From Enterococcus moraviensis ATCC BAA-383 (GTDB taxonomy: Bacteria; Bacillota; Bacilli; Lactobacillales; Enterococcaceae): 64,000 nt of DNA. Shown in pieces: positions 12,670 through 62,063 of this stretch. The translations under genes were made by a program, and so were the position numbers. How positions within the stretch are numbered: the first letter of the stretch is position 1; each line of letters starts with the position of its first letter. The notes beneath the pieces are model-generated. The model saw nothing but the letters and a program-made list of their open reading frames with translations. It had not been told where the DNA came from and searched no databases. The stretch is from the NCBI RefSeq assembly GCF_000407445.1, contig NZ_ASWB01000005.1, forward strand, positions 62,001 to 126,000, written 5' to 3'.

Positions 12670-12910
12670 GATTGCAATCGCTGCATATCTGTGTTAAAGT
12701 AATCCTCATGCGACGAGTTGACTCAATCAGACAGCTTAGGCTGTTCCGTTTTGACGGCTAGTGATTGACAAAACAACAGAGGCACATATGTTTAATCATA
12801 CCTACCGGATGTAGGCGTGTCGGATAAATATTTTTGTGGAGAAGATTTTATCTATTTATTTTTATAAATACTGTGGCAAAAAAGAAGACTTCGGTCTTCT
12901 TTTTTGTTTT
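12670..12910 (+). ncRNA. candidate structured small RNA, family not recognised
   Basis: This stretch holds nested pairings. CATAT(C)TGTG (12684-12693) pairs with CACATATG (12783-12790), and CCTC (12704-12707) with GAGG (12779-12782). TCAATCA (12723-12729) pairs with TGATTGA (12762-12768) and encloses two hairpins, ACAGC-TTAG-GCTGT and CCGT-TTTG-ACGG. A CCTAC-CGGAT-GTAGG hairpin (12801-12815) follows. It ends in a strong terminator and no gene follows in operon position, so a stand-alone RNA fits better than a riboswitch. It does not match my memory of 6S, tmRNA, SRP, RNase P or common riboswitches. The 5' end is uncertain. Confidence 0.5.
12878..12910 (+). terminator. strong UUCG-capped terminator
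   Basis: AAAAAAGAAGAC (12878-12889), loop TTCG, then GTCTTCTTTTTT (12894-12905) and more T residues. This perfect 12-bp stem with a stable tetraloop ends the candidate small RNA or the dehydrogenase transcript. Confidence 0.92.
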
Positions 12911-13134: not shown

Positions 13135-13202
13135 TTTGTGTTGTTACGAAATAAAAATCAAGATATAGTTCAAGTGTAAGAGAAAGAAGGTTGGTGAGTA
13201 GA

Positions 13203-15071
13203 ATGTCACTGCACTTATCAAAACGGGAAATAAAAATATTGTTATTGCTTTTAGATTTAGAAGAAAGTGTGACAACAAAAGAATTGGCAGAAACCTTCCA
13301 TGTTAGTGTCCGAACGATCAAATATGATTTAGAAAATGTACGTGATTGGTTTAAAGAACAGAATGTTTTACTTAAAACTAGACGAAACAAAGGGATTTGG
13401 TTGGAGTTACCAGATTCAGAACGATTGACCTTAAAAAATGAAATTATTGAAGTTGAACGATTTGAAACATACCCAGACCAAGAATTGCGAGTAAATCAAT
13501 TGATTTTTCGTTTATTATTAGCACCCAAATGTTTGACGTCACAAGCGTTAGCCAATGAATTACAAGTTAGCAGAAATACGATCATCAGTGATTTGGATCG
13601 CATAGAAGAATTGATCGACGTTCATGAACTTGTATTAAATCGTCAAAGCCGTCAAGGTTTTTCTATTGTTGGAGAAGAAAGCAAGATTCGTTTGTTGATG
13701 GAATACATTACCCAAAAAGAAATTACTGAATATGATATTTATCAAATCATGAGCTATTTTGTGCAATCAGGACAACAGAAAAAAATGCAAGAAGTTCATG
13801 TGGGCGTCAACACGATTTTTCAAAAAATCTATCAAGTTGCGCTAAAGGAGATGACGGGACTTCTAGATCCCTCTTTGTTTGATCAATTTAACTACGCTGA
13901 AATTCTTTCAATTACGCTACGAGTTGCGATTGCAGCTTCGAGAATGCAGTTACACCATACAGTTGGTGGGTATAAAATGTTGACAAATCAAAAGGTATTG
14001 CAACAAAAACAAGAGTTACCGTTCTTATTAATGAAGAAAGTTTTTGATCATTATGAGCTTCCTCTGTTAGCAGATGAATACTTCTATATTTATAGTGATG
14101 TATTTGTTGCAAATAACCAACAAGACATTGTTGGTTTGACAGAAGAGTTGATCAAAGATGTGTCAGAAGAAATTAATTTTCCTTTTTACCGCGATCGTCA
14201 ACTTTTTACGAATTTATTTGCACATCTTTCCTTACGGTTAACAAAAAAACACCTCTTTATAAATGAGTACAATCCTTTTGTGGATGATATCAAAGCAAAA
14301 TACCCGCAACTATTTTCCGCCATACAACTTGCGAGTCAAAGTGACATTGTAGGCTCTGCATTATTGATCAACGATTCATTTATTGCCTATATTGCATTGC
14401 ACTTTTTAGTGGCATACGAGAAAAATCTTCATGAAGTCAATGTAGTTAGGATCGTGTATGTGTGTTCGACAGGACTAGGTGTGACAAGCTTGATTGAACA
14501 GAAAATTTTAGAGGAAGTCGCAAATGTTGAAATTGCTGGTTTTGCTTCGGTATTAAATGCTGTTGATATTATAGAAGAAAAAAATCCAGACTTGGTTTTG
14601 AGTATATTTCCCATTGAAATTATCAATCGTCCATTTGTCAAAGTCAATCCATTACCTACAGAAGCCGATATTCAGACAATCCAAGATGAAGTCAATAAAA
14701 TTTTGACCCATACCAAAACAGGAAAAGTTCCTCGTTTGATCCCTCGTCAGCAAGTGAGGGAAAACCAAGGAATCGAAGCAGAAAGTCGAGATATTATTGT
14801 TCAGACGTATGTCATTTATGAAGCGTTACTTAAAGCATTTGCTGAAAAATTAGCAGAAGAATATAAAGAAGCATTTTTACTTCATGTGATGCTGATGGTT
14901 CATCGAATTACGTTTGACGGTCAATATGAAAACGAAGGCAATATCGTTAAGGAAATGCTACTTGCTCAGCAAGAGTTAGTCGAACAAATCGAACGGATTT
15001 TTGCCGAAAATGATTTAATGGTTAATCAAGCAGAAATTACTGCTTTATTGAATTATATAAGAGAGGAGTAG
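13203..15071 (+). CDS. PRD-domain transcriptional regulator (BglG/MtlR-like)
   Basis: This regulator of about 622 residues is controlled by the phosphotransferase system. The N-terminus has two helix-turn-helix units (TTKELAETFHVSVRTIKYDL and a second containing ELQVSRNTIISDL). PRD domains with candidate phospho-His residues follow. An EIIB-like segment with Cys in VYVCSTGLGVTSLIE lies near residues 415-430. The C-terminal part again looks PRD-like. This layout fits transcription activators of the MtlR/LicR kind rather than RNA antiterminators. ATG 13203 is preferred; upstream TTG/GTG codons have poorer spacing. It stands 5 bp before the small PRD gene and probably senses uptake of the island's substrate. 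Confidence 0.88.
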   Translation: MSLHLSKREIKILLLLLDLEESVTTKELAETFHVSVRTIKYDLENVRDWFKEQNVLLKTRRNKGIWLELPDSERLTLKNEIIEVERFETYPDQELRVNQLIFRLLLAPKCLTSQALANELQVSRNTIISDLDRIEELIDVHELVLNRQSRQGFSIVGEESKIRLLMEYITQKEITEYDIYQIMSYFVQSGQQKKMQEVHVGVNTIFQKIYQVALKEMTGLLDPSLFDQFNYAEILSITLRVAIAASRMQLHHTVGGYKMLTNQKVLQQKQELPFLLMKKVFDHYELPLLADEYFYIYSDVFVANNQQDIVGLTEELIKDVSEEINFPFYRDRQLFTNLFAHLSLRLTKKHLFINEYNPFVDDIKAKYPQLFSAIQLASQSDIVGSALLINDSFIAYIALHFLVAYEKNLHEVNVVRIVYVCSTGLGVTSLIEQKILEEVANVEIAGFASVLNAVDIIEEKNPDLVLSIFPIEIINRPFVKVNPLPTEADIQTIQDEVNKILTHTKTGKVPRLIPRQQVRENQGIEAESRDIIVQTYVIYEALLKAFAEKLAEEYKEAFLLHVMLMVHRITFDGQYENEGNIVKEMLLAQQELVEQIERIFAENDLMVNQAEITALLNYIREE

Positions 15072-15076
15072 CACGT

Positions 15077-15415
15077 ATGAAGTTAAATGACGATGCTCAA
15101 ACAATCATTGACGAAAGTCAAAATCAGGTTGAACTTCAAGCAGCACTTGAACAAATCGATACGCTATTGAAGGAACAACAGATCCAGCCAAGCGAATTAC
15201 AATGGACAATCTTGATCAATCATATCAATGAAATGATCAAACGCTCGATTGCAGGAGAAAAGATGTCTGGTGTGGACCCGAAGATGTTTGAAGAAGTATC
15301 CAAAGAAGCTTTGCTGATTGCTGATAAAGTTGTACAGCATATTGGGAATTTGCCCTCAGATGAAATGTATGTATTATCAATTCATTTTGAAGCAGCACGA
15401 CAAAATGAGATTTAG
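15077..15415 (+). CDS. small stand-alone PRD-domain protein (EF_0829-type)
   Basis: This 112-residue cytosolic protein consists of little more than one PRD module. A conserved His sits in ILINHINEMIKRS (about 44-56) and a second near the C-terminus in LSIHFEAARQ. It lacks DNA- or RNA-binding parts. PRD modules are phosphorylated on His by HPr or EIIB proteins. A stand-alone copy always next to the SFCGS/DUF431x genes is a recognised family (EF_0829/AHA_3910 type, from memory). It may act as a phosphorylation-dependent partner of the transporter or of the preceding regulator. Role inferred from context only. Confidence 0.8.
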   Translation: MKLNDDAQTIIDESQNQVELQAALEQIDTLLKEQQIQPSELQWTILINHINEMIKRSIAGEKMSGVDPKMFEEVSKEALLIADKVVQHIGNLPSDEMYVLSIHFEAARQNEI

Positions 15416-15471
15416 TAAGAAGCTTTTAAGAATGATTATTAGTATATAAATAAAAAATTGGAGGAATAATT

Positions 15472-15825
15472 ATGATAACAGTAGTAATCGCAGATCGTTT
15501 AGGAAAAGGTCAAAATGTTGCAAAAGGTGTCGAGGCTGCAGGAGGCAAAGCGGTTGTTGTACCTGGAATGGGTGCAGATATGCGTTTAGGAGATGTCATG
15601 CAGCAAGAAAATGCTGATTTAGGCATTTCGTTTTGTGGAAGTGGTGGTGCAGGCGCTTTAACAGCTGCAACAAAATACGGCTATTCAGAACGTCATGGTA
15701 TGCGCTCCATTGACGAAGGTATAACAGCAATCAATGACGGAAAAACTGTTTTAGGCTTTGGTTTTATGGATCAAGAGGAACTAGGGAAACGGATAGTAGA
15801 AGCGTATTTGAAAAAGAATGCTTAA
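15472..15825 (+). CDS. glycine-rich SFCGS family protein
   Basis: This 117-residue protein takes its family name from the motif ISFCGSGGAGALTAATKYGY (about 52-71). It starts with a strand ITVVIADRLGKGQNVAKGVEAAGG, like a small alpha/beta sugar-phosphate or EIIB-like fold. The single conserved Cys in SFCGS is placed as in PTS EIIB proteins, where Cys carries the phosphoryl group. That parallel is my inference, not established. It heads the four-gene transport block SFCGS - DUF4312 - DUF4311 - DUF4310, with GGAGG at good spacing, and is probably its soluble component. Confidence 0.85.
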   Translation: MITVVIADRLGKGQNVAKGVEAAGGKAVVVPGMGADMRLGDVMQQENADLGISFCGSGGAGALTAATKYGYSERHGMRSIDEGITAINDGKTVLGFGFMDQEELGKRIVEAYLKKNA

Positions 15826-15852
15826 CTAGTGAATTAGAGGAGGGAAAACTAG

Positions 15853-16227
15853 ATGGAGAAAGTCACTGTAAAAAAACGTCAGGTCATTCAAGTTGAAGGT
15901 ACGGGGAAAGAAAAAAATCTAGCTTTTGCGAATGCACTGAATCAAATCCACAATCGTGTATTAAAAGAAAAAGACGATGTGATCGTACGCATCGAACCTT
16001 TAGATATTCAAATTATTAGAGCAGAACAAGAAACATTTACGGAACGCTTTCTCTTTTTCTTTTTACCGCGGACACGTGCAGATTATCGTGTGTTGTTGGA
16101 TGTTGAAGTGGAGATCACATTGATTGAGATGGAGATGATTCCGTTTGTTGAAAAAAGAGTGAGTGATCCAAATGGTCTTCCAATCCCTTTTAGCAAGAAA
16201 AAAAGAGTGCATAAGGAGGCAAATTAA
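15853..16227 (+). CDS. DUF4312 family protein
   Basis: This 124-residue protein has no predicted membrane span. It is rich in basic residues at both ends and contains a hydrophobic patch RFLFFFLPRTRADYRVLLDVEV (about 64-85). It belongs to the DUF4312 family, always found between the SFCGS protein and DUF4311 in this island. The function is not known. The position suggests a cytosolic or peripheral component of the transporter. The stop codon directly abuts the ATG of the next gene (TAAATG), with GGAGG inside its last codons, so synthesis is coupled. Confidence 0.85.
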   Translation: MEKVTVKKRQVIQVEGTGKEKNLAFANALNQIHNRVLKEKDDVIVRIEPLDIQIIRAEQETFTERFLFFFLPRTRADYRVLLDVEVEITLIEMEMIPFVEKRVSDPNGLPIPFSKKKRVHKEAN

Positions 16228-17010
16228 ATGGACGTTTTAGTTGTTTTACTCAAATCATTATTGATTGGAGGATTGGTTGGATTTGCAGCGGGAGCAGGCG
16301 CTGCAAGAATGTTCCACGCACCCAGTACACAAGGCTTAGGTGCTTTTAGAACATTAGGCGAAATGAATGCATGTGAGGGAGATGCGGCTAGTCATTTTTC
16401 GTTTGGATTAGGGTTCTTCTTTAATGCGTGGGCATCGACGGTTGGTGCTGGTGCATTTACACAAGATGTGGATCACCGTGTTATTCCTAACTGGGCAGCT
16501 GCAGCGTTATTAGTAAAAAATAAAAATGTTGCTGAAACAATGCATAATCCTAAAAAAATGGGGATTTCTGGTGCAATCGTGGGTATGTTAGTCGTGGCGT
16601 TTTTAAATACGACAGCCTCAGCAATTCCAGAATCTTTACAAGTGACAGCAATCGCTGTTTTAGTACCAGCTGCAAACTTACTGATTAATACTGTGATGCC
16701 AGTTTTATTCTGGTTAGCAGCAATTGATGCAGGCAAACGTTCAGGACTTTGGGCAACGATTTTTGGTGGACTTGCCACAATGATTATGGGAAATGCAGTT
16801 CCAGGTGTTGTTTTGGGTATTTTGATTGGAAAAGGTGTCGATGAAATTGGGTGGAATAGAGTAACCAAAAGTATGATGGCAGCAGTCATTTTATTATTTG
16901 TATTTAGTGCCTTTTTCCGTGGATTTGACTTACAAATGATTGAAAGCTTTAGAATGCAAATCCCAGGTTGGCTGCAAAATATGCATGATGCATTTACTAT
17001 TGGTAAATAA
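16228..17010 (+). CDS. DUF4311 integral membrane protein
   Basis: This 260-residue membrane protein has about six to seven hydrophobic segments. The Gly/Ala-rich N-terminus LVGFAAGAGAARMFHAPSTQ and the segment GEMNACEGDAASHFSFGLGF are typical of the DUF4311 family. It probably forms half of the membrane channel with DUF4310. The sequence does not resemble ABC, MFS or TRAP permeases. The acidic/Cys-containing MNACEGD stretch between helices could line the substrate path. The substrate is probably the sugar acid degraded by the DgaE/DgaF enzymes downstream; that is inferred from context. Confidence 0.85.
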   Translation: MDVLVVLLKSLLIGGLVGFAAGAGAARMFHAPSTQGLGAFRTLGEMNACEGDAASHFSFGLGFFFNAWASTVGAGAFTQDVDHRVIPNWAAAALLVKNKNVAETMHNPKKMGISGAIVGMLVVAFLNTTASAIPESLQVTAIAVLVPAANLLINTVMPVLFWLAAIDAGKRSGLWATIFGGLATMIMGNAVPGVVLGILIGKGVDEIGWNRVTKSMMAAVILLFVFSAFFRGFDLQMIESFRMQIPGWLQNMHDAFTIGK

Positions 17011-17034
17011 TGAAGGAGAAAGTGAGGAACTGTA

Positions 17035-17697
17035 ATGGATGAGATAGTAGAATTAGAGAAAAAGAATTTTTGGTTCGCTGATTGGTCGTTTCCAATTTTA
17101 GTCGGTTTATTATCTGCTGGAGTATTTGCTGGAACCCACATGTACATTGAGCATGGCGTTGGAGCGTTTAATGAAGTAGCTATTGTTGCAATGCTAAAAG
17201 CCGGAATGGATGGCGGTTCTTACGGAGCAGCGGCAGCATTTGGTGCAAGTTTCTTATTTGCTCGTATATTAGAGGGCTCTTTGGTTGGCATTTTAGATAT
17301 TGGAGGTGCAATTTTGACAGGTGTTGGAATTGGTGTTCCTGCAATACTTTTAAGTATGGACATTACAGCGCCAGTTGAAAACTTTGGCCTTTCCTTATTA
17401 ACGGGCATGCTTCTTGGTTTGATTATTGGCGGCATCATCATTATGATTCGTAAATTTACCATTAATCAGTCAAATTCTACGTTTGGTGCTGATGTTATGA
17501 TGGGCGCAGGGAATGCTTCAGGTCGCTTCTTAGGACCTTTGATCATTATCAGTGCATGCGGTGCATCTGCTCCAATCGGTATTGGTTCAATTATTGGTGC
17601 TGTGATTTTCTACGTGTGGAAAAAGCCAATTGCAGGTGGTGCAATTCTAGGTGCGATGATTTTTGGTGCAATATTCCCAGTTGATTTACCTAGTTAA
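17035..17697 (+). CDS. DUF4310 integral membrane protein
   Basis: This 220-residue membrane protein has about six hydrophobic helices and many Gly-Ala pairs, for example the GGSYGAAAAFGASFLFARIL segment near residues 60-80. It belongs to DUF4310, the constant partner of DUF4311. Its start follows AAGGAG 24 bp after the previous gene, and it ends the four-gene transport block. A promoter-like region with a cre-like box then separates it from the PTS IIC gene. Inference: with DUF4311 it forms the membrane part of a transporter that may be PTS-like, given the PRD proteins next to it. Confidence 0.85.
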   Translation: MDEIVELEKKNFWFADWSFPILVGLLSAGVFAGTHMYIEHGVGAFNEVAIVAMLKAGMDGGSYGAAAAFGASFLFARILEGSLVGILDIGGAILTGVGIGVPAILLSMDITAPVENFGLSLLTGMLLGLIIGGIIIMIRKFTINQSNSTFGADVMMGAGNASGRFLGPLIIISACGASAPIGIGSIIGAVIFYVWKKPIAGGAILGAMIFGAIFPVDLPS

Positions 17698-17707
17698 AAC
17701 GAATTAA

Positions 17708-17745
17708 AGTTGCACTTTTCTTTTGAAAACCGTTTACATTATAAT
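17708..17745 (+). promoter_or_regulatory. promoter region with cre-like box and AGTTGCACT site
   Basis: A perfect TATAAT lies at 17740-17745. GAAAACCGTTTACA (17725-17738) matches 12 of 14 positions of the catabolite-responsive element and lies directly against the -10, as expected for CcpA repression. AGTTGCACT (17708-17716), shared with the region ahead of the PRD regulator, lies where an activator would bind. No -35 is convincing, which also favours an activated promoter. Confidence 0.55.
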
Positions 17746-17820
17746 GTTACCATGTTATTATAAATGAGAAATAATTTTGATTTTTTATTTATATTAATTT
17801 TTGAACGGAGGACAAAAGAA

Positions 17821-19140
17821 ATGAATGGTTTTGTGCAGTGGATGGAAGTAAAATTGATGCCGATTGCCAATAAATTTGGCTCACAGCGTCATATGACGGC
17901 AATTAGAAAGGGACTTATTGCTACAATGCCTTTGACGATCGTCGGTGCATTTTTTACAGTGTTCCAGAATATTCCAATCGATGCGTATATGAAATTTATT
18001 GAGCCATATCAAGCAGTGTTGGATATTCCTTCTCGATATACTATGGGGATTTTAGCTTTATATGCAACGTTTGGTATTGCTTCTTCTTTAGCAACAAGTT
18101 ATAAGTTGGATTCTTTAACATGTGGGATTTTAGCGGTTATGGCCTTTTTAGTAACGGCAGCACCGCCAACACGAGTTTTTGAAGATGTGAAAGATGTTAT
18201 TGGTGCAGGTCGTTATATTAATTTAGCGAATATCGGTTCAGCCTCATTATTTGGCGCAATCGTTACTGCCCTTGTTTCAGTGGAAATTTATCGTTTCTTT
18301 ATTCAAAAAGATATTACGATTAAAATGCCTGATGGTGTTCCACCAGAAGTATCAAATTCATTTATCGCATTGATTCCAGGTGCTGTGATCTTATTACTAT
18401 TTTGGGTAATTCGTCATGTGATTGGTTTTGATTTAAATGGGTTCTTGAGTACATTATTGATGCCGTTGAAAGACACTTTAGCAGGGAATAGCCTATTTGG
18501 CGGATTGCTTACAGTCTTCCTGATTTGTTTCTTCTGGGTTTTAGGGATTCACGGACCAGCGATCATGGGACCGGTTATCAGACCGTTTTGGGATATGTCG
18601 ATTGCTGAAAATACACTTGCTTTTCAAGAAGGAGCGTCAGTTCACAATTTACCGAATATCTTTACGGAACAATTTTTACAATGGTTTATCTGGATCGGTG
18701 GCGCAGGGACTACTTTAGCGTTAGTTGTTTTAATGATGTTTTCAAAATCGACATACCTGAAAAGTTTAGGTCGTTTGTCTTTCTTACCAGGTTTATTTAA
18801 TATTAATGAGCCCGTTATCTTTGGTACACCAATCGTTATGAATCCAATTTTAGGGATTCCATTCATTGTGGCACCATTGATCACCACAACATTTTCTTAT
18901 TTCTTAACTGTTACAAATGTGATTCCGATGATGGCAGCTCGTTTACCATTTGCAATACCAGCACCAATCGCTGCTTGGATGAGTACTAATTGGAGCGTGC
19001 CAGCAGCATTGCTTGTTTGTGTCAATTTCCTGATTACTTTGGCGATTTACTACCCGTTCTTCAAAGTATATGAAAAACAACAGTTAGATAAAGAAGCAGA
19101 AGAGTTGGCAGCAGAACAAAAAGCGAAAGCAGCTGCTTAA
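17821..19140 (+). CDS. PTS cellobiose/lactose-family EIIC permease, orphan
   Basis: This 439-residue EIIC of the lactose/cellobiose family (CelB-like) has about ten membrane helices. The family signatures FNINEPVIFGTPIVMNPI (near residue 325) and GIHGPAIMGPVIRPFW (near 243) are clear. EIIC translocates the sugar while EIIB and EIIA phosphorylate it. No EIIA or EIIB gene lies nearby, so it must borrow these from another locus. It precedes a DUF871 gene, a pairing common in Firmicutes. ATG 17821 has CGGAGGA about 8 bp before it. The C-terminus ends in an unusual Lys/Ala/Glu tail. Confidence 0.9.
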   Translation: MNGFVQWMEVKLMPIANKFGSQRHMTAIRKGLIATMPLTIVGAFFTVFQNIPIDAYMKFIEPYQAVLDIPSRYTMGILALYATFGIASSLATSYKLDSLTCGILAVMAFLVTAAPPTRVFEDVKDVIGAGRYINLANIGSASLFGAIVTALVSVEIYRFFIQKDITIKMPDGVPPEVSNSFIALIPGAVILLLFWVIRHVIGFDLNGFLSTLLMPLKDTLAGNSLFGGLLTVFLICFFWVLGIHGPAIMGPVIRPFWDMSIAENTLAFQEGASVHNLPNIFTEQFLQWFIWIGGAGTTLALVVLMMFSKSTYLKSLGRLSFLPGLFNINEPVIFGTPIVMNPILGIPFIVAPLITTTFSYFLTVTNVIPMMAARLPFAIPAPIAAWMSTNWSVPAALLVCVNFLITLAIYYPFFKVYEKQQLDKEAEELAAEQKAKAAA

Positions 19141-19153
19141 TTTAAAAGAGGGG

Positions 19154-19180
19154 GAGGGTAGTAGATTTACTATCCTCTTT
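19154..19180 (+). terminator. hairpin after the PTS IIC gene
   Basis: GAGGGTAGTA (19154-19163) pairs with TACTATCCTC (19168-19177) with one G-U pair and a four-base loop, followed by TTT. It is probably a partial terminator that lowers expression of the genes downstream. Confidence 0.6.
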
Positions 19181-19193
19181 GGTGATTAAGATC

Positions 19194-19430
19194 ATGTTGA
19201 TTTGGTTTATTGTATTTTTTATTTTGAGTCAAGTCATGATCGAAAGAAAATGGTTGCCTGCATCATTTACAGGATTGAGGTTGTTCCATTTATGTATTGT
19301 ATCGATTGGGTTGATTTTGCTCTCAATCGTAGTTGGAATTTTAATTAGACAACCACTGTTCATAGTAGGAAGTGTAACTATTTTGTGTAGTTCGGTCATC
19401 TCTTGGAAGTATCGACATAAATTTGATTAG
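19194..19430 (+). CDS. small membrane protein of unknown function
   Basis: I do not recognise this short protein (about 78 residues from ATG 19194; TTG 19179 and GTG 19182 are alternatives). It has two to three hydrophobic segments: MLIWFIVFFILSQVMI at the N-terminus, LFHLCIVSIGLILLSIVVGIL in the middle and a shorter one at FIVGSVTILCSSVIS. It ends with a basic KYRHKFD tail. It lies between the orphan EIIC and the DUF871 gene, 20 bp before the latter, so it may belong to that operon. The ribosome site is weak. The hydrophobic pattern makes a real gene plausible. Confidence 0.6.
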   Translation: MLIWFIVFFILSQVMIERKWLPASFTGLRLFHLCIVSIGLILLSIVVGILIRQPLFIVGSVTILCSSVISWKYRHKFD

Positions 19431-19450
19431 ATAACGCGGAGGGAAAACAA

Positions 19451-20539
19451 ATGAAACGAGCATTAGGTGTATCAGTTTATCCAGATCATAGTGAAATAGA
19501 AAAAGATAAAGCTTATTTAAAAAAAGCTAGCGAGTGTGGATTTTCACGGATTTTTATGAGTATGTTAGAAGTTACTGAAGGCAAAGAAGTAGTAAAAGAG
19601 AAATTTAAATCATTAATTTCTTATGCGAAAGATTTAGGTTACGAAACAATTTTAGATGTAGCACCAAATATTTTTGATGAACTGCAAATTTCCTATGATG
19701 ATTTAACCTTCTTTTACGAAACGGGAGCGGACGGTATTCGTTTGGATGTTGGATTTGATGGGAACAAGGAAGCTAAATTGACATTTAATCCATTTGATTT
19801 AGCGATTGAATTGAATATGAGTAATGATGTAGCCTATTTGGATAATATTTTAACGTATGAAGCCAATGTTCCATTCCTTTACGGATGTCACAATTTTTAT
19901 CCGCAAGAAGGCACAGCGCTACCGTATGATTTCTTTGAGCGCTGTAGCGTTCGTTTTAAAAAGCATGGGATTCGCACAGCTGCCTTTATTAATTCTCAGG
20001 CAGGTAAGATCGGTCCTTGGGATGTCAATGATGGCTTACCAACACTGGAAATGCATAGACATTTACCAGTAGATATTCAGGCGAAACACCTATTTGCGAC
20101 TGGTTTGATTGATGATGTGATCATAGGAAATGCCTATGCATCGGATGAAGAGCTTGAATTACTAGGTCGTTTGAATCGCTATCAATTAGAATTAGCAGTT
20201 GAGTTTACAAACGAGGCTAGCAAAGTTGAAAAAGAGATCACGTTAACGGAACAACACTTCCGTCGGGGCGACATTACAGATCAAGTCGTTCGTTCAACGG
20301 AAGTTCGTAAAAAATACAAAGATGCTGCGAATCCTGCTCACGATAATACGCATGAATTTCAAATCGGCGATGTTGTGATTGGAAATGATGCATTTGGGAA
20401 ATACAAAAATGAACTACAGATTGTTTTACAGCCTCATTCAGATGACCGTAAAAACAAAGTGGGGCAAATAACAGAGAAAGAATTGTTGTTGTTGGATTTT
20501 GTAAAACCCTGGACAAAATTTAGATTTACAGAAAAGTAG
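19451..20539 (+). CDS. DUF871 protein, MupG-like 6-phospho-glycosidase candidate
   Basis: This 362-residue cytosolic protein has an N-terminal TIM barrel (about 1-235) and a small C-terminal beta domain, the DUF871 layout. The start MKRALGVSVYPDHSE and the segments DVAPNIFDEL, GADGIRLDVGFDG and YGCHNFYPQEGTALPYDFF are characteristic. One DUF871 member, MupG of Staphylococcus aureus, hydrolyses the 6-phospho-MurNAc-GlcNAc disaccharide. A similar 6-phospho-disaccharide hydrolysis is likely here, because an orphan EIIC lies just upstream. MurQ and MurR are absent from the window, so MurNAc itself is not assured. GGAGGG is the ribosome site. Confidence 0.82.
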   Translation: MKRALGVSVYPDHSEIEKDKAYLKKASECGFSRIFMSMLEVTEGKEVVKEKFKSLISYAKDLGYETILDVAPNIFDELQISYDDLTFFYETGADGIRLDVGFDGNKEAKLTFNPFDLAIELNMSNDVAYLDNILTYEANVPFLYGCHNFYPQEGTALPYDFFERCSVRFKKHGIRTAAFINSQAGKIGPWDVNDGLPTLEMHRHLPVDIQAKHLFATGLIDDVIIGNAYASDEELELLGRLNRYQLELAVEFTNEASKVEKEITLTEQHFRRGDITDQVVRSTEVRKKYKDAANPAHDNTHEFQIGDVVIGNDAFGKYKNELQIVLQPHSDDRKNKVGQITEKELLLLDFVKPWTKFRFTEK

Positions 20540-20547
20540 GGGATAAA

Positions 20548-21657
20548 ATGAGTTACGATTTAATTATAAAAAATGGAAGAACCATTGATGGTAAGCCAAT
20601 AGAAATAGCAATCAATGCTGGTAAAATCGTTAAAGTTTCTGATACAATCGAAGCAAAGAGTAAAGAGGTATTGGAACTAGTGGCAGACTCGTATCTATCT
20701 GCAGGTTGGATCGATGACCATGTGCATTGTTTTGAAAAGATGACCTTGTACTACGATTTTCCAGATGAAATTGGGGTAAAAAAAGGTATCACAACAGTGA
20801 TTGATGCTGGTACTACAGGAGCGGAAAACATTCATGAATTTTATGACCTAGCGAAACAAGCCAAAACCAATGTGTATGCGTTAGTGAATATTTCTAAATG
20901 GGGCATCGTTGAACAAGATGAATTAGCTGATCTAAGCAAAGTTAAAGAAGAGTTAGTGCATAAAGCATTAGCGGAATTACCAGATTTTGTAGTAGGAATC
21001 AAGGCTAGAATGAGTAAAACAGTGATTGGAGAAAATGGAATCACACCTTTAGAAATGGCGAAGAAAATTCAAAAAGAAAACAATGACTTGCCATTGATGG
21101 TTCACATTGGTTCTGCGCCACCTGAACTAGATGAAATTTTAGCTCATATGTCAAAAGGAGATGTGCTGACGCATTGTTTTAATGGAAAACCAAACGGAAT
21201 CTTAAACAAAGAAACCGATCAAATAAAAGATTTTGCTTGGGCAGCATATGATAAAGGAATCGTATTTGATATCGGACATGGGACAGATAGTTTTAATTTC
21301 CATGTGGCAGAAGCAGCTCTAAAAGAAGGCATGAAAGCAACGTCGATCAGTACAGATATCTATATTCGAAATCGTGAAAATGGACCAGTCTACGATTTAG
21401 CAACCACAATGGAAAAATTACGCGTTGTAGGCTATGAATGGCCTGAAATTATTGAGAAGGTTACTGAAGCGCCTGCTAAAAATTTTCATTTTGATACAAA
21501 AGGACACTTAAAAGAAGGCTATGATGCTGATATTACAGTCTTTACAATAGAGGCGGGGCATAAAACATTGACTGATTCAAATGGTTTTACCAGAGAGGCA
21601 AAAGAATTGATCAAACCAGTAAAAACGATTATTGGAGGAACCGTTTATGACAATTAG
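20548..21657 (+). CDS. amidohydrolase/deacetylase, EF_0837-type
   Basis: This 369-residue metal-dependent hydrolase has the amidohydrolase barrel. The metal ligands are visible: HVH in GWIDDHVHCFEK (about 58-61), a Lys in VVGIKARM (about 150) that may be carboxylated, His in MVHIGSAPPE and THCFNGKPNG, and Asp in SISTDIY. Related enzymes remove N-acyl groups or open cyclic amides. Placed before DgaE- and DgaF-type enzymes, it most likely deacylates an N-acylated amino-sugar acid before deamination. That substrate is inferred. It starts 8 bp after the DUF871 gene and overlaps the next gene by 11 bp. Confidence 0.88.
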   Translation: MSYDLIIKNGRTIDGKPIEIAINAGKIVKVSDTIEAKSKEVLELVADSYLSAGWIDDHVHCFEKMTLYYDFPDEIGVKKGITTVIDAGTTGAENIHEFYDLAKQAKTNVYALVNISKWGIVEQDELADLSKVKEELVHKALAELPDFVVGIKARMSKTVIGENGITPLEMAKKIQKENNDLPLMVHIGSAPPELDEILAHMSKGDVLTHCFNGKPNGILNKETDQIKDFAWAAYDKGIVFDIGHGTDSFNFHVAEAALKEGMKATSISTDIYIRNRENGPVYDLATTMEKLRVVGYEWPEIIEKVTEAPAKNFHFDTKGHLKEGYDADITVFTIEAGHKTLTDSNGFTREAKELIKPVKTIIGGTVYDN

Positions 21658-22741
21658 TTATGAAAAATTCAACCTAAAAGAAGTGATCAATGCTTCAGGT
21701 AGAATGACGATTTTAGGTGTATCAAAAGTATCAGAAAATGTTCTGGCTGCTCAAAAATTTGGTGGTGAACATTTCTTCGAAATGAGTGAGCTAAGTATTC
21801 AAACTGGCGCCTATCTTGCAAAACTCTTAAAAGTCGAAGATGCTCAAGTGGTTTCTTCTGCATCTGCTGGTATTGCACAAAGTGTGGCAGCCTTGATTGG
21901 TGAAGGATTGGTGTTTCATGCCTATCATCCTTATACAGAGAAGATCACGAAACGTGAAATCATCCTGCCTAAGGGACACAATGTCGATTATGGTACGCCT
22001 GTTGAAGTAATGGTAGAACAAGGTGGTGGACAGGTCGTTGAAGCAGGCTATGCAAATATGTGTACACCAGAACATATTGAAATGATGATTACCGACCAAA
22101 CTGCAGCTATTTTATACATTAAAAGTCACCATACTGTTCAAAAAAGCATGTTAAGCGTGACAGAAGCTGCGACCGTAGCCAAAATGAATAACATCCCTTT
22201 GATTGTGGATGCAGCAGCAGAAGAAGACCTCTTCAAATATATTGAAGCAGGAGCCGATCTAGTGATATACAGTGGAGCAAAAGCTATTGAAGGGCCAAGT
22301 GCAGGACTTGTGATTGGTAAAAAAGACTACATCGAGTGGATTCGTCTACAAGGAAAAGGTATTGGTCGTGCGATGAAAATCGGCAAAGACAATATCTTGG
22401 GGTTCACACAAGCTGTTGAAGACTATGTGAAAAATGGCAGTGAATCAGGAGAAGCGATGCAAGCCCGTCTCACACCCTTTATTGAAGCGTTAAATAATAT
22501 TCCAAATATTGTTGCCAAAGTCGTTCAAGATGGTGCAGGTAGAGAGATTTATCGCGCAAGTATTAAAATCAGTGGAGCCAAATCAGCCAAAGAAGTTATC
22601 CAAGAATTACGGGCTGAAAGTCCAGCAATATATACACGTGAATATCAAGCGAACAATGGCATTATTGAATTTGATATCCGGTCTGTCAATGAAATAGAAA
22701 TGAAGAAAATCGTGACTCGTTTAAACGAAATCATGAACTAA
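21647..22741 (+). CDS. dgaE: DgaE-family PLP-dependent ammonia-lyase
   Basis: This 364-residue PLP enzyme has a SelA-like fold. The pyridoxal Lys lies in YSGAKAIEGPSAGLVIG (about residues 209-225), preceded by the cofactor-binding Asp in IPLIVDAAAEED. In Salmonella, DgaE converts D-glucosaminate-6-phosphate to 2-keto-3-deoxygluconate-6-phosphate plus ammonia. The same type of alpha,beta-elimination is expected here. ATG 21647 is chosen because GGAGG lies 9 bp before it, inside the end of the amidohydrolase gene; the TTG at 21632 is upstream of that site. The aldolase gene follows after 27 bp. Confidence 0.88.
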   Translation: MTISYEKFNLKEVINASGRMTILGVSKVSENVLAAQKFGGEHFFEMSELSIQTGAYLAKLLKVEDAQVVSSASAGIAQSVAALIGEGLVFHAYHPYTEKITKREIILPKGHNVDYGTPVEVMVEQGGGQVVEAGYANMCTPEHIEMMITDQTAAILYIKSHHTVQKSMLSVTEAATVAKMNNIPLIVDAAAEEDLFKYIEAGADLVIYSGAKAIEGPSAGLVIGKKDYIEWIRLQGKGIGRAMKIGKDNILGFTQAVEDYVKNGSESGEAMQARLTPFIEALNNIPNIVAKVVQDGAGREIYRASIKISGAKSAKEVIQELRAESPAIYTREYQANNGIIEFDIRSVNEIEMKKIVTRLNEIMN

Positions 22742-22768
22742 AAAAGAAAAAATAGGAGTGAATCAACC

Positions 22769-23512
22769 ATGACATTAACACCAAACTATTTAGAAGATCG
22801 CATTTGCTTAAACGTTTTAGCAAATTCAGTAGAAAATGCGAAAAATTGTTACGAAGCTGCTGAAGGACATATCGTATTAGGCGTACTATCAAAGAATTAC
22901 CCAACGGATGCTGCTGCAATTGAGGATATGAAAAAATATGCAGCAGAAACAAATAATGCTTTATCTGTAGGGTTAGGTGCAGGTGATCCAAATCAAAGTC
23001 AAATGGTTTCAAGAATTTCAAAAGACTTACAACCGCAACACGTGAACCAAGTTTTCACTGGCGTAGGAACTTCTCGTGCATTACTAGGGCAAAACGACAC
23101 GATTGTGAATGGTTTAGTGTCTCCAACAGGTAAAGTTGGTATCGTTAATATTGCAACTGGCCCATTAAGCTCACAAGCACCCGCAGGGGAAGTAACAATC
23201 GAAACAGCGATTCGTCTATTACAAGATATGGGCGGTAGCTCAATCAAATTCTTCCCAATGAAAGGATTAGCCCACATTGAAGAATATAAAGCTGTGGCAG
23301 CAGCTTGTGCTAAATATGACTTCTACCTAGAACCAACAGGTGGCATCGATTTAGAAAATTTTGAAGAAATCGTCCAAATCGCAGTTGATGCAGGAGTGAA
23401 GAAGATTATTCCTCACGTATACAGCTCAATTATCGATTCAGCAACAGGTGACACAAAACCAGAAGATGTCAAAACATTACTTGGAATGATGAAAAACACA
23501 TTAACAAAATAA
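22769..23512 (+). CDS. dgaF: KDGP aldolase family protein, DgaF-type
   Basis: This 247-residue barrel aldolase has the candidate Schiff-base Lys in GGSSIKFFPMKGL (about 155-167), the arrangement of the DgaF/EF_0839 family. DgaF splits 2-keto-3-deoxy-6-phosphogluconate to pyruvate and glyceraldehyde-3-phosphate. Both products enter glycolysis. Other segments such as FTGVGTSRALLGQ and LEPTGGIDLENF line the barrel mouth. It is 27 bp after dgaE. Its stop codon runs directly into the first of four tandem 120-bp repeats, which may terminate or process this long message. Confidence 0.9.
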   Translation: MTLTPNYLEDRICLNVLANSVENAKNCYEAAEGHIVLGVLSKNYPTDAAAIEDMKKYAAETNNALSVGLGAGDPNQSQMVSRISKDLQPQHVNQVFTGVGTSRALLGQNDTIVNGLVSPTGKVGIVNIATGPLSSQAPAGEVTIETAIRLLQDMGGSSIKFFPMKGLAHIEEYKAVAAACAKYDFYLEPTGGIDLENFEEIVQIAVDAGVKKIIPHVYSSIIDSATGDTKPEDVKTLLGMMKNTLTK

Positions 23513-24000
23513 AAGCTGATCAAGCTCGTTTAGGACTGACCGAAAAATAGCAAAACTTGAATGCAGCGGTTTTAGCTGCCGTCAAGGCTTGTCTTTTTTC
23601 CTAAGTCCTAGCTTGTAAAGCTAGATAAATAAAAGCTGATCAAGCTCGTTTAGGACTGACCGAAAAATAGCAAAACTTGAATGCAGCGGTTTTAGCTGCC
23701 GTCAAGGCTTGTCTTTTTTCCTAAGTCCTAGCTTGTAAAGCTGGATAAAATAAAAGCTGATCAAGCTCGTTTAGGACTGACCGAAAAATAGTAAAACTTG
23801 AATGCAGCGGTTTTAGCTGCCATCAAGGCTTGTCTTTTTTCCTAAGTCCTAGCTTGTAAAGCTAGACAAATAAAAGCTGAATGAGCTTTTTCAGCACTGA
23901 AAAAAGTAATAAAACTTGACGGTGGTATTTTTTACCTGATTCAAGTTTTATCTTTTTTCTGAATGGCTCGTTCATGAAGCGAGAAAGTAGGCCGGAATCA
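23511..24000 (+). repeat. four tandem ~120-bp structured repeats
   Basis: Units begin with AAAAGCTGA at 23511, 23631, 23752 and 23872, so the period is 120-121 bp. Units 1-3 are nearly identical (a few substitutions); unit 4 is strongly diverged. Each unit folds as a nested stem: CAAGCT/AGCTTG, TAGGACT/AGTCCTA, then CTTGA/TCAAG and GCAGC/GCTGC around a short loop, with TTTTTT on the right side. Unit 4 keeps the fold with other bases (GAGC/GCTC, GAAAAAAG/CTTTTTTC, AAAACTTGA/TTCAAGTTTT). No protein frame is conserved. They lie between the aldolase and kinase genes. Confidence 0.9.
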
Positions 24001-24002
24001 AC

Positions 24003-25013
24003 ATGAGAATTGTAGCTTTTGGTGAAATAATGATGCGTTTGACACCACCAGAATATTTGATGTTGGAACAAACAAAAGAGTTACGCCTAGATTTTACAGG
24101 GACAGGAGTCAATATTTTAAGTAACCTTGCTCACTTTGGTTGTCAAACAAGCTTACTAACAAATCTTCCTGATAATCGATTAGGGGAGGCAGCTAAAGCA
24201 AGTGTCCGTCAGCTAGGTATTCAAGATCATTGGATCGGTACGGCTGGGGATCATATTGGCTCTTATTTTGCTGAGATGGGATTTGGCCCAAGACCCACAC
24301 AAGTAACCTATCAAAACCGCAGAAATAGTTCGTTTGGTATAAGCAACGCTGCTAGTTATGATTTTGATGCAATCTTAGCAGAAACTGATTTGATCCATAT
24401 TTGTGGTATTTCATTGAGTTTGACGGAAGAAACACGCTCAGCAGCCTTTGCATTAGCTGAAAAGGCACATGATTTTGGGAAAAAAGTTTGTTTTGATTTT
24501 AATTTTCGCCCCAGTTTAAATGAAGAGCATGGAGTATCTTTTATGAAAGAGCAATATGAAAAAATATTACCGTATTGTGATCTCGTTTTTGGAAGTCAGC
24601 GTGACTTGACTGATTTATTAGGAATGAAACTAGATGAAACGCTGGAGTCTTCTAAACAATTTGAAGAATTAGTTCATCGGTTTATGACAAACTATCAACT
24701 TGAGTATTTTGCTGGAACACTTCGGCAAGGAGATGGAGACAAGCAGTATTTAACAGGTTTTTTAGTTGATTCAGATCATTATGTACAAGCAGCTCCTAGA
24801 GAAATTATCAATTTAGATCGAATAGGTGCAGGTGATGGCTACGCTGCAGGTGTATTGCTTGGTTATAGCGAAGCATGGCCTCTGATTGAAACGGTTGAAT
24901 TTGCTACAGCCAACGGTGTCTTAGCGCATACGATCCAAGGAGACGTACCACTTACGACTCGAAAACAAGTCAGACATATTATGGAACAGCCGACAGTAGA
25001 TTTGATTCGCTGA
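24003..25013 (+). CDS. PfkB-family sugar kinase, probable 2-keto-3-deoxygluconate kinase
   Basis: This 336-residue ribokinase-type kinase starts with the strand RIVAFGEIMMRLTPP (about 2-16). Its PfkB signature 2 is RIGAGDGYAAGVLLG (about 273-287), with the catalytic Asp in GAGD. The substrate-side segment FTGTGVNILSNLAHFG (about 32-47) stands where KdgK has GGAEAN. Kinases of this type phosphorylate 2-keto-3-deoxygluconate, which would feed the DgaF aldolase. ATG 24003 follows the last tandem repeat and has only a weak ribosome site (GCCGGAA), so its translation may be low or regulated by the repeat hairpin. Confidence 0.82.
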   Translation: MRIVAFGEIMMRLTPPEYLMLEQTKELRLDFTGTGVNILSNLAHFGCQTSLLTNLPDNRLGEAAKASVRQLGIQDHWIGTAGDHIGSYFAEMGFGPRPTQVTYQNRRNSSFGISNAASYDFDAILAETDLIHICGISLSLTEETRSAAFALAEKAHDFGKKVCFDFNFRPSLNEEHGVSFMKEQYEKILPYCDLVFGSQRDLTDLLGMKLDETLESSKQFEELVHRFMTNYQLEYFAGTLRQGDGDKQYLTGFLVDSDHYVQAAPREIINLDRIGAGDGYAAGVLLGYSEAWPLIETVEFATANGVLAHTIQGDVPLTTRKQVRHIMEQPTVDLIR

Positions 25014-25209: not shown

Positions 25210-26220
25210 ATGGCCAATGAAAATATTTGGAAAGCACTAGACGATGATGTTTTGAAAGATAGTATTCGAAAACGACCAGGTATGTATATTGGCGGGATCG
25301 GTCCGACGGGTTTGGAAAGTATGGTCTTACAAGTATTGGATCATTTACTACAATTAGCGGTCGATTTAACACAAGCGGAGCTTTCGATCGAACTTTCAGA
25401 GAGACAATTCATCTTTTCTTTTTTCAGTAAAAAAGGGCTATTTTTAGATAAAATTCCAGAAGAACAGTATACACCGCCGTATCTTTTCCTTTCAGTAGTC
25501 AATGCATTATCAGAGCAGTTGGGATTTGGGATCGAAAAACAAGGGAAACGAACAATCCAAATCTATCAAAACGGACAACTGAATAAAAAAGCGTTGATCC
25601 CATCTGAAGACGAAGGACAAAGAATCGAACTGGCTTTTACACCAGCTGAACCTTTATTTGGGAATAAGGAATTATCTTATTTTGTTTTATTTAACCGATG
25701 TCAAGAACTCGCAATGCTAAATAGCGGATTGACGATTTCGTTGACGGATGGGAAAAAACAAAAAAACTATTTTCATTACAAACAAGGACTTGTTGAATAT
25801 ATTTTTCAAAAAGACGATAGCATTACGAGAAACGGACAGCCGTTAGTCATCAATACGATTAGTGAAGGCGTCTCGATTCAAGCTGTGATTTCAAAAAATG
25901 GTTCTACTAGTGTTAAAGACAGTTTTGTCAATGGTCATTTACCTTCAGATGGTGGAACGCATTTGGATGGTTTTGTTCAAGGAACCGTGGATGCAATTAA
26001 CCAATTTTTAGAAGAAACGAATCGACTGAAATATCTAACAACCGATAATTTTCCTGAACGTTTTGATGTTGTTCTTTCAATTAAAGTTAAACGTCCGAGA
26101 TACACAGGAGCAGTCAAAAAGAAAATCAGAAATCCTGAATTGTATAAAATCGTAAAAGAAGCAGTTTTTACAGAAGTATCTATATTTTTAAAAAGACACC
26201 CAGCTTGGTATTTGAATTGA
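25210..26220 (+). CDS. GyrB/ParE-like ATPase-transducer protein with degenerate ATP site
   Basis: This 336-residue protein aligns by eye with the whole N-terminal 43-kDa part of GyrB and stops there, without the TOPRIM and C-terminal parts. RKRPGMYIGG (20-29), SVVNALSEQL, LNSGLTISLTDGKK, DGGTHLDGF and the transducer end VKRPRYTGAVKKKIRNPEL are conserved. The ATP site is not: the catalytic Glu and the Mg-binding Asn of EVVDNAIDEA become Q41 and H45 in LQVLDHLLQLA, the DDGRGIP motif is absent and the GLHGVG loop is lost. The frame is open throughout, so it is not a pseudogene. Inference: a gyrase/topo IV partner, decoy or scaffold. It lies 26 bp before yaiI. Confidence 0.85.
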   Translation: MANENIWKALDDDVLKDSIRKRPGMYIGGIGPTGLESMVLQVLDHLLQLAVDLTQAELSIELSERQFIFSFFSKKGLFLDKIPEEQYTPPYLFLSVVNALSEQLGFGIEKQGKRTIQIYQNGQLNKKALIPSEDEGQRIELAFTPAEPLFGNKELSYFVLFNRCQELAMLNSGLTISLTDGKKQKNYFHYKQGLVEYIFQKDDSITRNGQPLVINTISEGVSIQAVISKNGSTSVKDSFVNGHLPSDGGTHLDGFVQGTVDAINQFLEETNRLKYLTTDNFPERFDVVLSIKVKRPRYTGAVKKKIRNPELYKIVKEAVFTEVSIFLKRHPAWYLN

Positions 26221-61031: not shown

Positions 61032-62063
61032 ATGCTTAGTACAGAAGATTTTGATTTTGATTTACCAGAAGAATTAATTGCGCAAACACCGTTGAAAGAT
61101 CGAACAAGTTCACGATTATTAGTTTTAAATCGTGAGACAAAAGAAATTGAAGATAAACATTTTCACGACATTATCGATGAGCTAAATGCTGGGGATGCAC
61201 TTGTTATGAATGATACACGAGTATTACCAGCCCGATTATATGGTGAAAAACCAGAAACTGGCGGTCATTTAGAAGTCCTTCTTTTGACTAATACACAAGG
61301 AGATACGTGGGAAACATTAATCAAACCAGCTAAACGTGCGAAAGTTGGGACTAAAATCAGTTTTGGTGATGGACGCTTAACAGCAACTGTTATTGAAGAG
61401 TTAGAACATGGCGGACGAATTGTGACTTTTGAATATGAGGGGATCTTTTTAGAAAATTTAGAATCACTTGGCGAAATGCCATTGCCACCCTATATCAAAG
61501 AACGTTTAGAAGATCCAGAACGCTACCAAACGGTATACGCTAAAGAAAATGGCTCCGCAGCGGCCCCTACAGCGGGTTTACACTTTACGCAGGAACTTCT
61601 TACTAAAATACAGTCTAAGGGCGTAAAGCTTGTTTATTTGACCTTACACGTTGGTTTAGGAACATTTAGACCAGTTAGTGTGGAGAATATTTCAGAACAC
61701 GAAATGCATAGTGAATTTTATCGTTTAACAGAAGATGCGGCAGCACAACTAAATGAAGTTCGAAGTAGTGGGGGCAAAATAGTTGCCGTTGGGACAACAT
61801 CGATTCGGACTTTAGAAACAATCGGAACGAAGTTTGATGGTCAGATCAAAGCAGATAGCGGATGGACCGATATTTTTATAACGCCAGGATATGAATTTAA
61901 AATTGTTCAAGCTTTTTCAACGAATTTCCATTTGCCTAAGTCAACATTAGTTATGTTGGTCAGTGCATTTGCTAGTCGAGACTTGACACTTGCAGCATAT
62001 CATCATGCAATCGAAGAGCGTTATCGTTTCTTTAGCTTTGGAGATGCAATGTTTGTAAAGTAG
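61032..62063 (+). CDS. queA: tRNA preQ1(34) S-adenosylmethionine ribosyltransferase-isomerase
   Basis: This 343-residue enzyme transfers and rearranges the ribosyl part of S-adenosylmethionine onto preQ1 in tRNA, giving epoxyqueuosine. The start [58 protein letters not shown] and [14 protein letters not shown] are all typical. ATG 61032 is chosen; GTG 61023 lies within the likely ribosome-site region AAAGAGTGA. In many bacteria it neighbours tgt or ruvB; here neither is in the window. It is followed by a branched inverted-repeat element. Confidence 0.95.

Follow-up and report, generated by a model that had tools for sequence, protein, structure and literature searches.

The 64,000-nucleotide stretch analyzed here (the window; positions 62,001 to 126,000 of contig NZ_ASWB01000005.1 from Enterococcus moraviensis ATCC BAA-383, whose 3.6-Mb genome is assembled in six contigs) contains a sugar-acid island at positions 13,203 to 25,013. 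Within this island, a block of five genes, encoding a lone PRD protein, an SFCGS protein and members of the DUF4312, DUF4311 and DUF4310 families, precedes a set of catabolic enzymes. The block is widely conserved and unstudied, and it is best read as an importer of new make, which relies on the phosphotransferase system (PTS) to take up N-acylated 2-amino-2-deoxy-aldonic acids and uses a His residue of the PRD protein and a Cys residue of the SFCGS protein as phosphocarriers. We put the probability of this reading at roughly 0.5. More tentatively, with the odds leaning somewhat against it, the block may represent an undescribed class of PTS permeases, in which the PRD protein would act as EIIA, a Cys protein with the RpiB/LacAB fold as EIIB and DUF4311/DUF4310 as a new type of permease, with the yhfY-yhfU-yhfT genes forming a second branch.

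All genes named in a preliminary description of the island are intact open reading frames, located on the plus strand where they had been placed, and each matches its family. The description had missed three further genes, for an EIIC, an 83-residue protein and a MupG-like protein, between those for DUF4310 and the amidohydrolase. The regulator, the block and the three pathway enzymes are arranged as follows:

13203..15071, plus strand: PRD/Mga-type transcriptional regulator with helix-turn-helix, Mga and PRD domains (ATG at 13203; the frame opens with TTG at 13191)
15077..15415, plus strand: lone PRD protein of the EF_0829 family (TIGR03582, 130.8 bits against a cut-off of 69.35; PF00874, E 3.3e-7)
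15472..15825, plus strand: SFCGS protein of 117 residues (TIGR03577/PF14272)
15853..16227, plus strand: small DUF4312 protein (family match; without hydrophobic segments)
16228..17010, plus strand: DUF4311 membrane protein, proposed permease subunit (family match)
17035..17697, plus strand: DUF4310 membrane protein, proposed permease subunit (family match)
20548..21657, plus strand: EF_0837-type amidohydrolase/deacetylase, proposed de-N-acetylase (TIGR03583, 564 bits against a cut-off of 432.15)
21647..22741, plus strand: DgaE-family pyridoxal phosphate (PLP) ammonia-lyase (TIGR01437, 568.8 bits; the frame opens with TTG at 21632, and the first ATG is at 21647)
22769..23512, plus strand: DgaF-type 2-keto-3-deoxy-6-phosphogluconate (KDPG) aldolase (NF047796, 389.9 bits; cut-off 300)

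In the proposed mechanism, enzyme I (EI) and HPr would pass phosphate to the invariant His of the lone PRD protein and thence to Cys55 of the SFCGS protein, whose RpiB/LacAB-type fold would replace the EIIB fold. The SFCGS protein would then phosphorylate the sugar acid during its passage through DUF4311/DUF4310, with DUF4312 as an accessory component. Inside the cell, the amidohydrolase would take off the acetyl group, the DgaE-type lyase would deaminate the 6-phosphate to KDPG, and DgaF would cleave KDPG into pyruvate and glyceraldehyde-3-phosphate. The same phosphate flow would be read by the PRD regulator.

The conserved core emerges from a comparison of 97 loci. Of these, 13 are from Enterococcaceae and four were taken from a plasmid collection; the other 80, for which DUF4311 was the inclusion criterion, belong to named genomes. 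DUF4311 is present in all 97 loci, DUF4310 in 96, SFCGS, the lone PRD protein and DUF4312 in 95 each, and the regulator in 92. The amidohydrolase, DgaE and DgaF were each found in 94 loci, which supports the pathway for an N-acylated amino-sugar acid suggested by the preliminary description, and a lactonase in 31. The core consists of the lone PRD protein, SFCGS, DUF4312, DUF4311, DUF4310, the deacetylase, the DgaE-type lyase and DgaF, usually joined by the PRD regulator, and this set recurs far beyond chance, with few losses. SFCGS and DUF4311 occur together in 95 of the loci. Three loci (L080, L118 and L033) are truncated by contig ends, and SFCGS is missing only in the first two of them, both of which begin at one. 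L037 (12342-16778) combines the block and the regulator with none of the three enzymes in the ~12 kb downstream, and the more distant locus L146 (4380-8849) likewise has the block and the regulator with the deacetylase, lyase and aldolase missing nearby. In L034, DgaF follows immediately after DUF4310, with the adjacent deacetylase and lyase missing; the latter two are also missing from L055 (8794-10340), on a chromosome-size record of Aeromonas caviae filed as a plasmid, where pieces of DUF4310 and DgaF lie in one frame and the block is a decayed copy. These patterns indicate that the block can occur apart from the pathway, whereas the genes within it remain linked.

The SFCGS protein is the candidate for the second phosphocarrier. 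Its Cys55 is invariant in 107 of 107 deduplicated sequences, and the motif FCGSGGAGA is retained in 133 of 133. Based on its predicted structure (mean predicted local distance difference test score 93.1), the protein has an RpiB/LacAB-type fold: a structure search with the model returned RpiB/LacAB-type entries at ranks 1-23, and no EIIB was among the 50 structural matches listed, although this listing by itself excludes nothing. Profile comparison points the same way, with hhalign aligning SFCGS to PF02502 (LacAB/RpiB) at 94.5% probability (E 8e-8), as opposed to 0.1% for three unrelated controls, and placing Cys55 opposite the Cys of the CGTG loop. The SFCGS profile also picks up LacB-like frames at E ~1e-4, and in five genomes with a weak SFCGS match, searched both ways, such frames lie inside PF02502 matches; SFCGS is not among the matches of the PF02502 HMM itself at E 0.01. 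The preliminary description had regarded the residue as an EIIB-like Cys and named the lack of an EIIB-like fold as a result that would speak against a PTS-related transporter. The Cys indeed proved invariant, but both the model and the profile comparison group SFCGS with RpiB/LacAB, and an EIIB-like fold is not supported.

This kinship suggests a different role, in which SFCGS would be an enzyme of the LacAB/RpiB kind (an isomerase, epimerase or similar) that works on the substrate after import or phosphorylation and is encoded with the transporter simply as a member of the pathway. The fold, the profile match and the shared Cys motif would all suit such a role. However, the LacAB/RpiB isomerases resemble the SFCGS part of the block only, and a pathway of deacetylase, lyase and aldolase needs no isomerization. 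RpiB uses an active-site His, and no His is invariant in the deduplicated SFCGS sequences (H75 is replaced by Tyr in 57 of the 107), a reason not to file SFCGS as an isomerase. In addition, the protein has a shorter C-terminus (117 residues, compared with ~145-172 in LacB/RpiB-type frames), adjoins membrane genes and stays with them in loci that lack the pathway enzymes (L037, L146), and the yhf operon described below has a similar protein next to a different set of enzymes. We therefore consider an enzymatic role of SFCGS improbable. Puzzlingly, LacAB/RpiB sequences themselves match a set of EIIBs around the Cys loop at 62% (E 7e-5).

Conserved residues in the remaining block proteins fit a phosphate relay. 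In the lone PRD protein, H49 and H103, which we take to be the phosphorylated PRD positions, are invariant in 117 of 117 deduplicated sequences. DUF4311 has two invariant His residues, H56 and H83 (113 of 113), whereas the deduplicated alignments of DUF4312 and DUF4310 contain no invariant His or Cys. This distribution is the pattern expected if the PRD protein acts as EIIA and SFCGS as EIIB, although it does not amount to proof. PTS permeases comprise the glucose-fructose-lactose, ascorbate-galactitol and mannose classes, next to the dihydroxyacetone (DHA) kinase system. With the known permeases the block shares the genetic linkage to EI/HPr and the regulation by PRDs, but family searches detect no recognizable EIIA, EIIB, EIIC or EIID in the core, apart from an EIIA_2 domain in the regulators of Bartonella and Klebsiella. 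This domain, which does not show in the regulators of the window, E. faecalis and the distant Bacillota genome G263, could be an alternative phosphate donor. The earlier notion that the block replaces a PTS permease must be qualified, since the island as a whole does contain a recognizable EIIC, albeit as a dispensable add-on.

The link to the PTS is most direct in two unrelated operons that carry HPr and EI genes of their own. On a plasmid of Bartonella sp. HY406 and a near-identical one of HY761, the whole core is accompanied by an EIIA_2-bearing regulator and a 671-residue HPr-EI fusion; we know of no sugar PTS in Bartonella. In G263, the operon reads regulator, amidohydrolase, PRD, SFCGS, DUF4312, DUF4311, DUF4310, DgaE, DgaF, HAD hydrolase, HPr, EI, and the genome has two more EI genes besides the operon's own. 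A locus from Enterococcaceae (L038:729-2752) has ptsH-ptsI directly upstream of the block, which include the genome's only full EI gene and may be chance neighbors. Altogether, EI and HPr are adjacent in three of 114 loci (the 97 main ones, six distant ones, L212 and ten further ones), and in the other 111 EI must lie elsewhere in the genome. HPr-like matches on the minus strand of 14 loci, which involve HPr only and show 24-36% identity, were discounted as dedicated HPr/EI genes.

For a control, 12 annotated records from ten genera were hand-picked among 397 plasmid records matching the Bartonella HPr-EI (193 of them at E 1e-60). Their HPr-EI genes lie within ~3 kb of an annotated PTS EII permease of the glucose/GlcNAc, fructose or glucitol type in 11 cases and in a DhaKL operon in one; within the limits of an incomplete gene table, no case pairs HPr-EI with nothing but a regulator. 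A dedicated EI thus marks its phosphate acceptor. The single DhaKL case is a precedent for a PTS-driven soluble kinase akin to DhaKLM, in which the PRD and SFCGS proteins would phosphorylate the acid in the cytosol after its facilitated entry through DUF4311/DUF4310. We find this very hard to reconcile with the fact that the soluble and membrane genes were never seen apart, the only loci without SFCGS being the two that start at contig ends. At the genome level, EI was present in all 17 block genomes tested and in 20 of 45 genomes without the block (Fisher p 2.5e-5, uncorrected for kinship); the 17 are a subset of the 54 block genomes then known, with 11 from one family and another from the same order. 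Together with the invariant PRD His, these results point against an independence from HPr and EI, which the preliminary description had likewise named as potentially adverse.

The enzymes connect the island to dgaABCDEF of Salmonella, which likewise includes a DgaE-type lyase and DgaF. Uptake there is by the PTS DgaABCD, reportedly of the mannose family, whereas the window has the PRD/SFCGS/DUF4310-4312 block and an added deacetylase. DgaE of the window scores 353 bits against NF047797, the equivalog model of the lyase DGL, and so stays below its cut-off of 600; nevertheless, Arg301, Arg332, Arg346 and His163 of DGL are each kept in 95 of 95 DgaE sequences. According to a study of DGL, uptake in the Salmonella system phosphorylates the substrate to D-glucosaminate-6-phosphate, and in docking the authors placed the substrate phosphate near the three arginines (PMC9529869). 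Because these arginines are kept and a kinase of the window's type is absent from 95 of the 97 loci, the phosphate would most simply come from uptake. Among the other enzymes, the amidohydrolase is closely related to PDB entry 2ics (E 2.6e-196), which is labeled adenine deaminase, DgaF, the only one in the window genome, is a relative of 3lm7, and the kinase a relative of 3ktn. The lactonase fits an aldonolactone as an entering or side form, and a HAD hydrolase follows DgaF in the distant Bacillota loci L142, L144 and L145. Our best guess is that the substrate is N-acetyl-D-glucosaminate (GlcNAc1A) or a stereoisomer of it.

The ong genes of Pseudoalteromonas follow the same logic for GlcNAc1A, leading through a deacetylase and a PLP-dependent deaminase to 2-keto-3-deoxygluconate (KDG) or its phosphate, but they reportedly differ by an SSS-family transporter, the lack of prior phosphorylation, a deaminase (OngC) of PLP fold type III and the requirement for a KDG kinase (PMC9537276). 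A study of Aeromonas sought this route and could not confirm it, and the block is absent from the genes named in the relevant portion of its text (PMC11653859), although Aeromonas carries it (L082, L091). For E. faecalis EF0839 and its duplicate EF2975, the portion seen of another report suggests a role in amino-sugar import, with the transporter unnamed (PMC7701990). The dgaEF pair of E. faecalis reportedly exists in a second copy that is nearly identical (PMC7396535, PMC2912369). In the open-license PMC text, we found no publication addressing what the block does.

The ong system also illustrates the main rival explanation, in which DUF4311/DUF4310 would be an ion-coupled permease and the role of the PTS purely regulatory, with EI/HPr phosphorylating the PRD regulator and the lone PRD protein to gate expression or transport. 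The acid would then receive its phosphate from a kinase whose gene lies elsewhere; in Enterococcus, the linked kinase could instead act at the KDG stage. It is in keeping with this idea that HPr and EIIB classically regulate proteins through their PRDs, that a kinase is linked to the block in the window, in L031 and L057 and in seven of the eight species examined from the window's genus, and that in L144 (331-3685) genes for a KdgT (KDG) permease, an SBD_N/NBD_C sugar-acid kinase and a PdxA relative immediately precede the regulator in the same orientation. Conversely, the rarity of the window-type kinase and the phosphate-site arginines of the lyase speak against it, all 12 control HPr-EI genes have an acceptor that phosphorylates a substrate, and the invariant Cys of SFCGS would be left unexplained. 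On balance, we judge ion-coupled uptake unlikely, but less so than the other alternatives. As for the kinase itself, the idea that its linkage signals unphosphorylated uptake was rejected as a general rule because proteins like the window's (blastp, E 1e-4, the scope of the kinase search) occur in two of the 97 loci and are missing from one of the eight species. Frames similar to the KdgT/kinase/PdxA set of L144 were also seen at the end of L147.

Several points weigh against a PTS-dependent importer. What the analysis directly establishes is the order of the genes, their conservation, the fold predicted for SFCGS, the linkage to EI/HPr and the rarity of the window's kinase; from these we infer transport, the substrate and the passage of phosphate via PRD and SFCGS. 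PRD regulators alone could account for the need for EI and HPr, and outside the window's order the association with EI shrinks to five of five genomes versus 20 of 45 (p 0.05, uncorrected for kinship), with a few of the 45 block-free genomes being <90% complete. Homology of SFCGS to EIIB was considered and, by sequence, rejected: its only Pfam match at E 0.01 is PF14272, and hhalign gives 1.0% against 11 of 17 same-genome PF02302 matches, those in short proteins. Moreover, the phospho-Cys of EIIBs (PF02302) directly follows the first beta strand, unlike Cys55, which comes after the third strand (50-53) of the model. DUF4311 has no match among known permeases (based on a low-confidence model), and mutual homology of DUF4311, DUF4310 and YhfT could not be established (hhalign 0.9%, 0.4% and 1.0%; previously, E. 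coli YhfT on its own had given 8%, E 0.004). The phosphate-site arginines weigh only moderately because the distant protein 8t7j has them too, making a family-wide trait possible, and the KdgT permease and kinase of L144 may possibly serve unphosphorylated uptake. The substrate of the block need not always match that of the enzymes, given that L034, L037, L055 and L146 lack an adjacent deacetylase and lyase. Finally, LPMO_10, a candidate companion that could supply oxidized chitin, was rejected: it occurs in 29 of 48 block genomes and 15 of 57 without the block (p 7e-4), but the association derives from one genus (8 of 26 versus 15 of 57 outside it, p 0.79) and lends no independent support.

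A possible relative of the block is the yhf operon. In Cetobacterium, its order is YhfZ, lone PRD, DUF2620 and YhfT, followed by an amidase, a phosphotriesterase relative and PLP enzymes. There and in E. coli, the lone PRD protein (YhfY), the Cys/Gly-rich YhfU (DUF2620), YhfT, the PLP enzymes and the phosphotriesterase-like hydrolase resemble the block and its surroundings, with E. coli YhfU reading CNTGAG where SFCGS has CGSGGAG. The SFCGS and YhfU/DUF2620 profiles align with a probability of 35% (E 4e-4) over 97 columns that include the Cys loop, or over 114 columns with looser trimming. In contrast to the block, the yhf operon has one membrane protein of 434 residues instead of two, lacks DUF4312 and encodes other enzymes. 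From these alignments, kinship of SFCGS and DUF2620 is suggestive but not established. A DUF4311 match below the cut-off was also noted in E. coli.

The remaining genes of the island are dispensable lineage add-ons:

17733..17761, plus strand: promoter-like site beside a cre-like sequence, upstream of EIIC in the AT-rich stretch 17700-17823 (nearly identical in E. faecalis)
17821..19140, plus strand: PTS lactose/cellobiose-family EIIC, add-on (TIGR00410, 398.4 bits against a cut-off of 236; the frame spans 17764-19140, and the start common to E. faecalis is the ATG at 17821)
19179..19430, plus strand: 83-residue membrane protein, add-on (two to three hydrophobic segments; no family match)
19451..20539, plus strand: MupG-like (6-phospho-N-acetylmuramidase-type) protein, add-on (MupG_N 323.6 bits, MupG_C 129.9 bits)
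24003..25013, plus strand: PfkB-type sugar kinase, add-on (KDG kinases nearest; below every curated NCBIfam cut-off)

EIIC, the 83-residue protein, MupG and the kinase each occur in two of the 97 loci (L031 and L057), and the kinase in one of the 13 Enterococcaceae loci first compared, some of which reach contig ends. The sugar kinase listed in the preliminary description is thus present in the window but is no part of the core. Among ten further loci, the eight from the window's genus have MupG in all cases and EIIC and the kinase in seven each, with L231 lacking EIIC and the 83-residue protein and L229 the kinase; the two from other genera have none of the four within the island. The 83-residue protein was present wherever an island EIIC was found. 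Gene order in E. faecalis (NZ_CP143580) is the same as in the window, and its EIIC counterpart EF0834 is reported to be targeted directly by NagY, the antiterminator for GlcNAc (PMC12502629). Judging by the promoter-like site, the EIIC-MupG insert probably has its own transcription start. Promoter and terminator scans gave no excess over shuffled sequence.

Other features flank these genes. The sole Rfam match is the Enterococcus sRNA Ref68 (Lacto-3) at 12709-12844, upstream of the regulator (89.2 bits; gathering threshold 44). Between dgaF and the kinase lies a 120-bp tandem repeat (23507-23880; 3.1 copies, 97% matches), each copy of which has a stretch pairing with 23939-23959; a degenerate extra copy seems to come next. 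On the 3' side of the kinase, a 336-residue protein (25210-26220) resembles part of GyrB/ParE (147.8 bits; cut-off 740), and the position of this protein and YaiI after the kinase is kept in the window's genus.

TIGRFAM hypothetical equivalogs already name the cluster proteins in Enterococcus and Aeromonas (EF_0829-EF_0833 with AHA_3910-3914, EF_0837, and EF_0839/AHA_3917), but assign no role in transport: of the five models for the block, four read "conserved hypothetical" and the fifth "PRD domain protein". Within the family, 48 of 105 genomes have an SFCGS above the cut-off, and in the phylum seven of 398 genomes, the window's own included, have a DUF4311 above it. The plasmid collection contains the block in six records, among them two as large as a chromosome. 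Scanning named genomes yielded at least 502 confirmed stretches, and the best 80 of these were kept; judging by title, they are almost all from Gammaproteobacteria, with few Betaproteobacteria and one Enterococcus. The leading query sequence came from Bartonella, which favors these groups.

Individual loci show peculiarities. In Providencia stuartii (L085:9284-9943), SFCGS lies inside a 220-residue frame and a separate DUF4312 was not found, as a result of either natural fusion or sequencing error. DUF4311 of one genome (G378; L049/L145) contains an in-frame TAG in an otherwise complete block, reflecting decay, error or read-through. A contig titled Chryseobacterium sp. (L112) has the gene pattern of a Citrobacter locus (L107) and an SFCGS that duplicates that of another locus, and probably stems from a mislabeled or contaminated assembly. 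On a Bartonella bat plasmid (L054:10781-16183), type VI secretion genes adjoin the sugar-acid operon.

If our reading is correct, PTS permeases would gain a new class, built on a fold that is not known to us in such a role, and the PRD, a regulatory domain, would be shown to function as a phosphocarrier. Four families listed in Pfam as of unknown function would obtain one, in at least 502 stretches of a single genome collection, and a testable hypothesis would follow for the yhf operon of E. coli. Finally, we propose that the block may open a second, phosphorylating route for the use of oxidized amino sugars such as those released by oxidative chitin cleavage.

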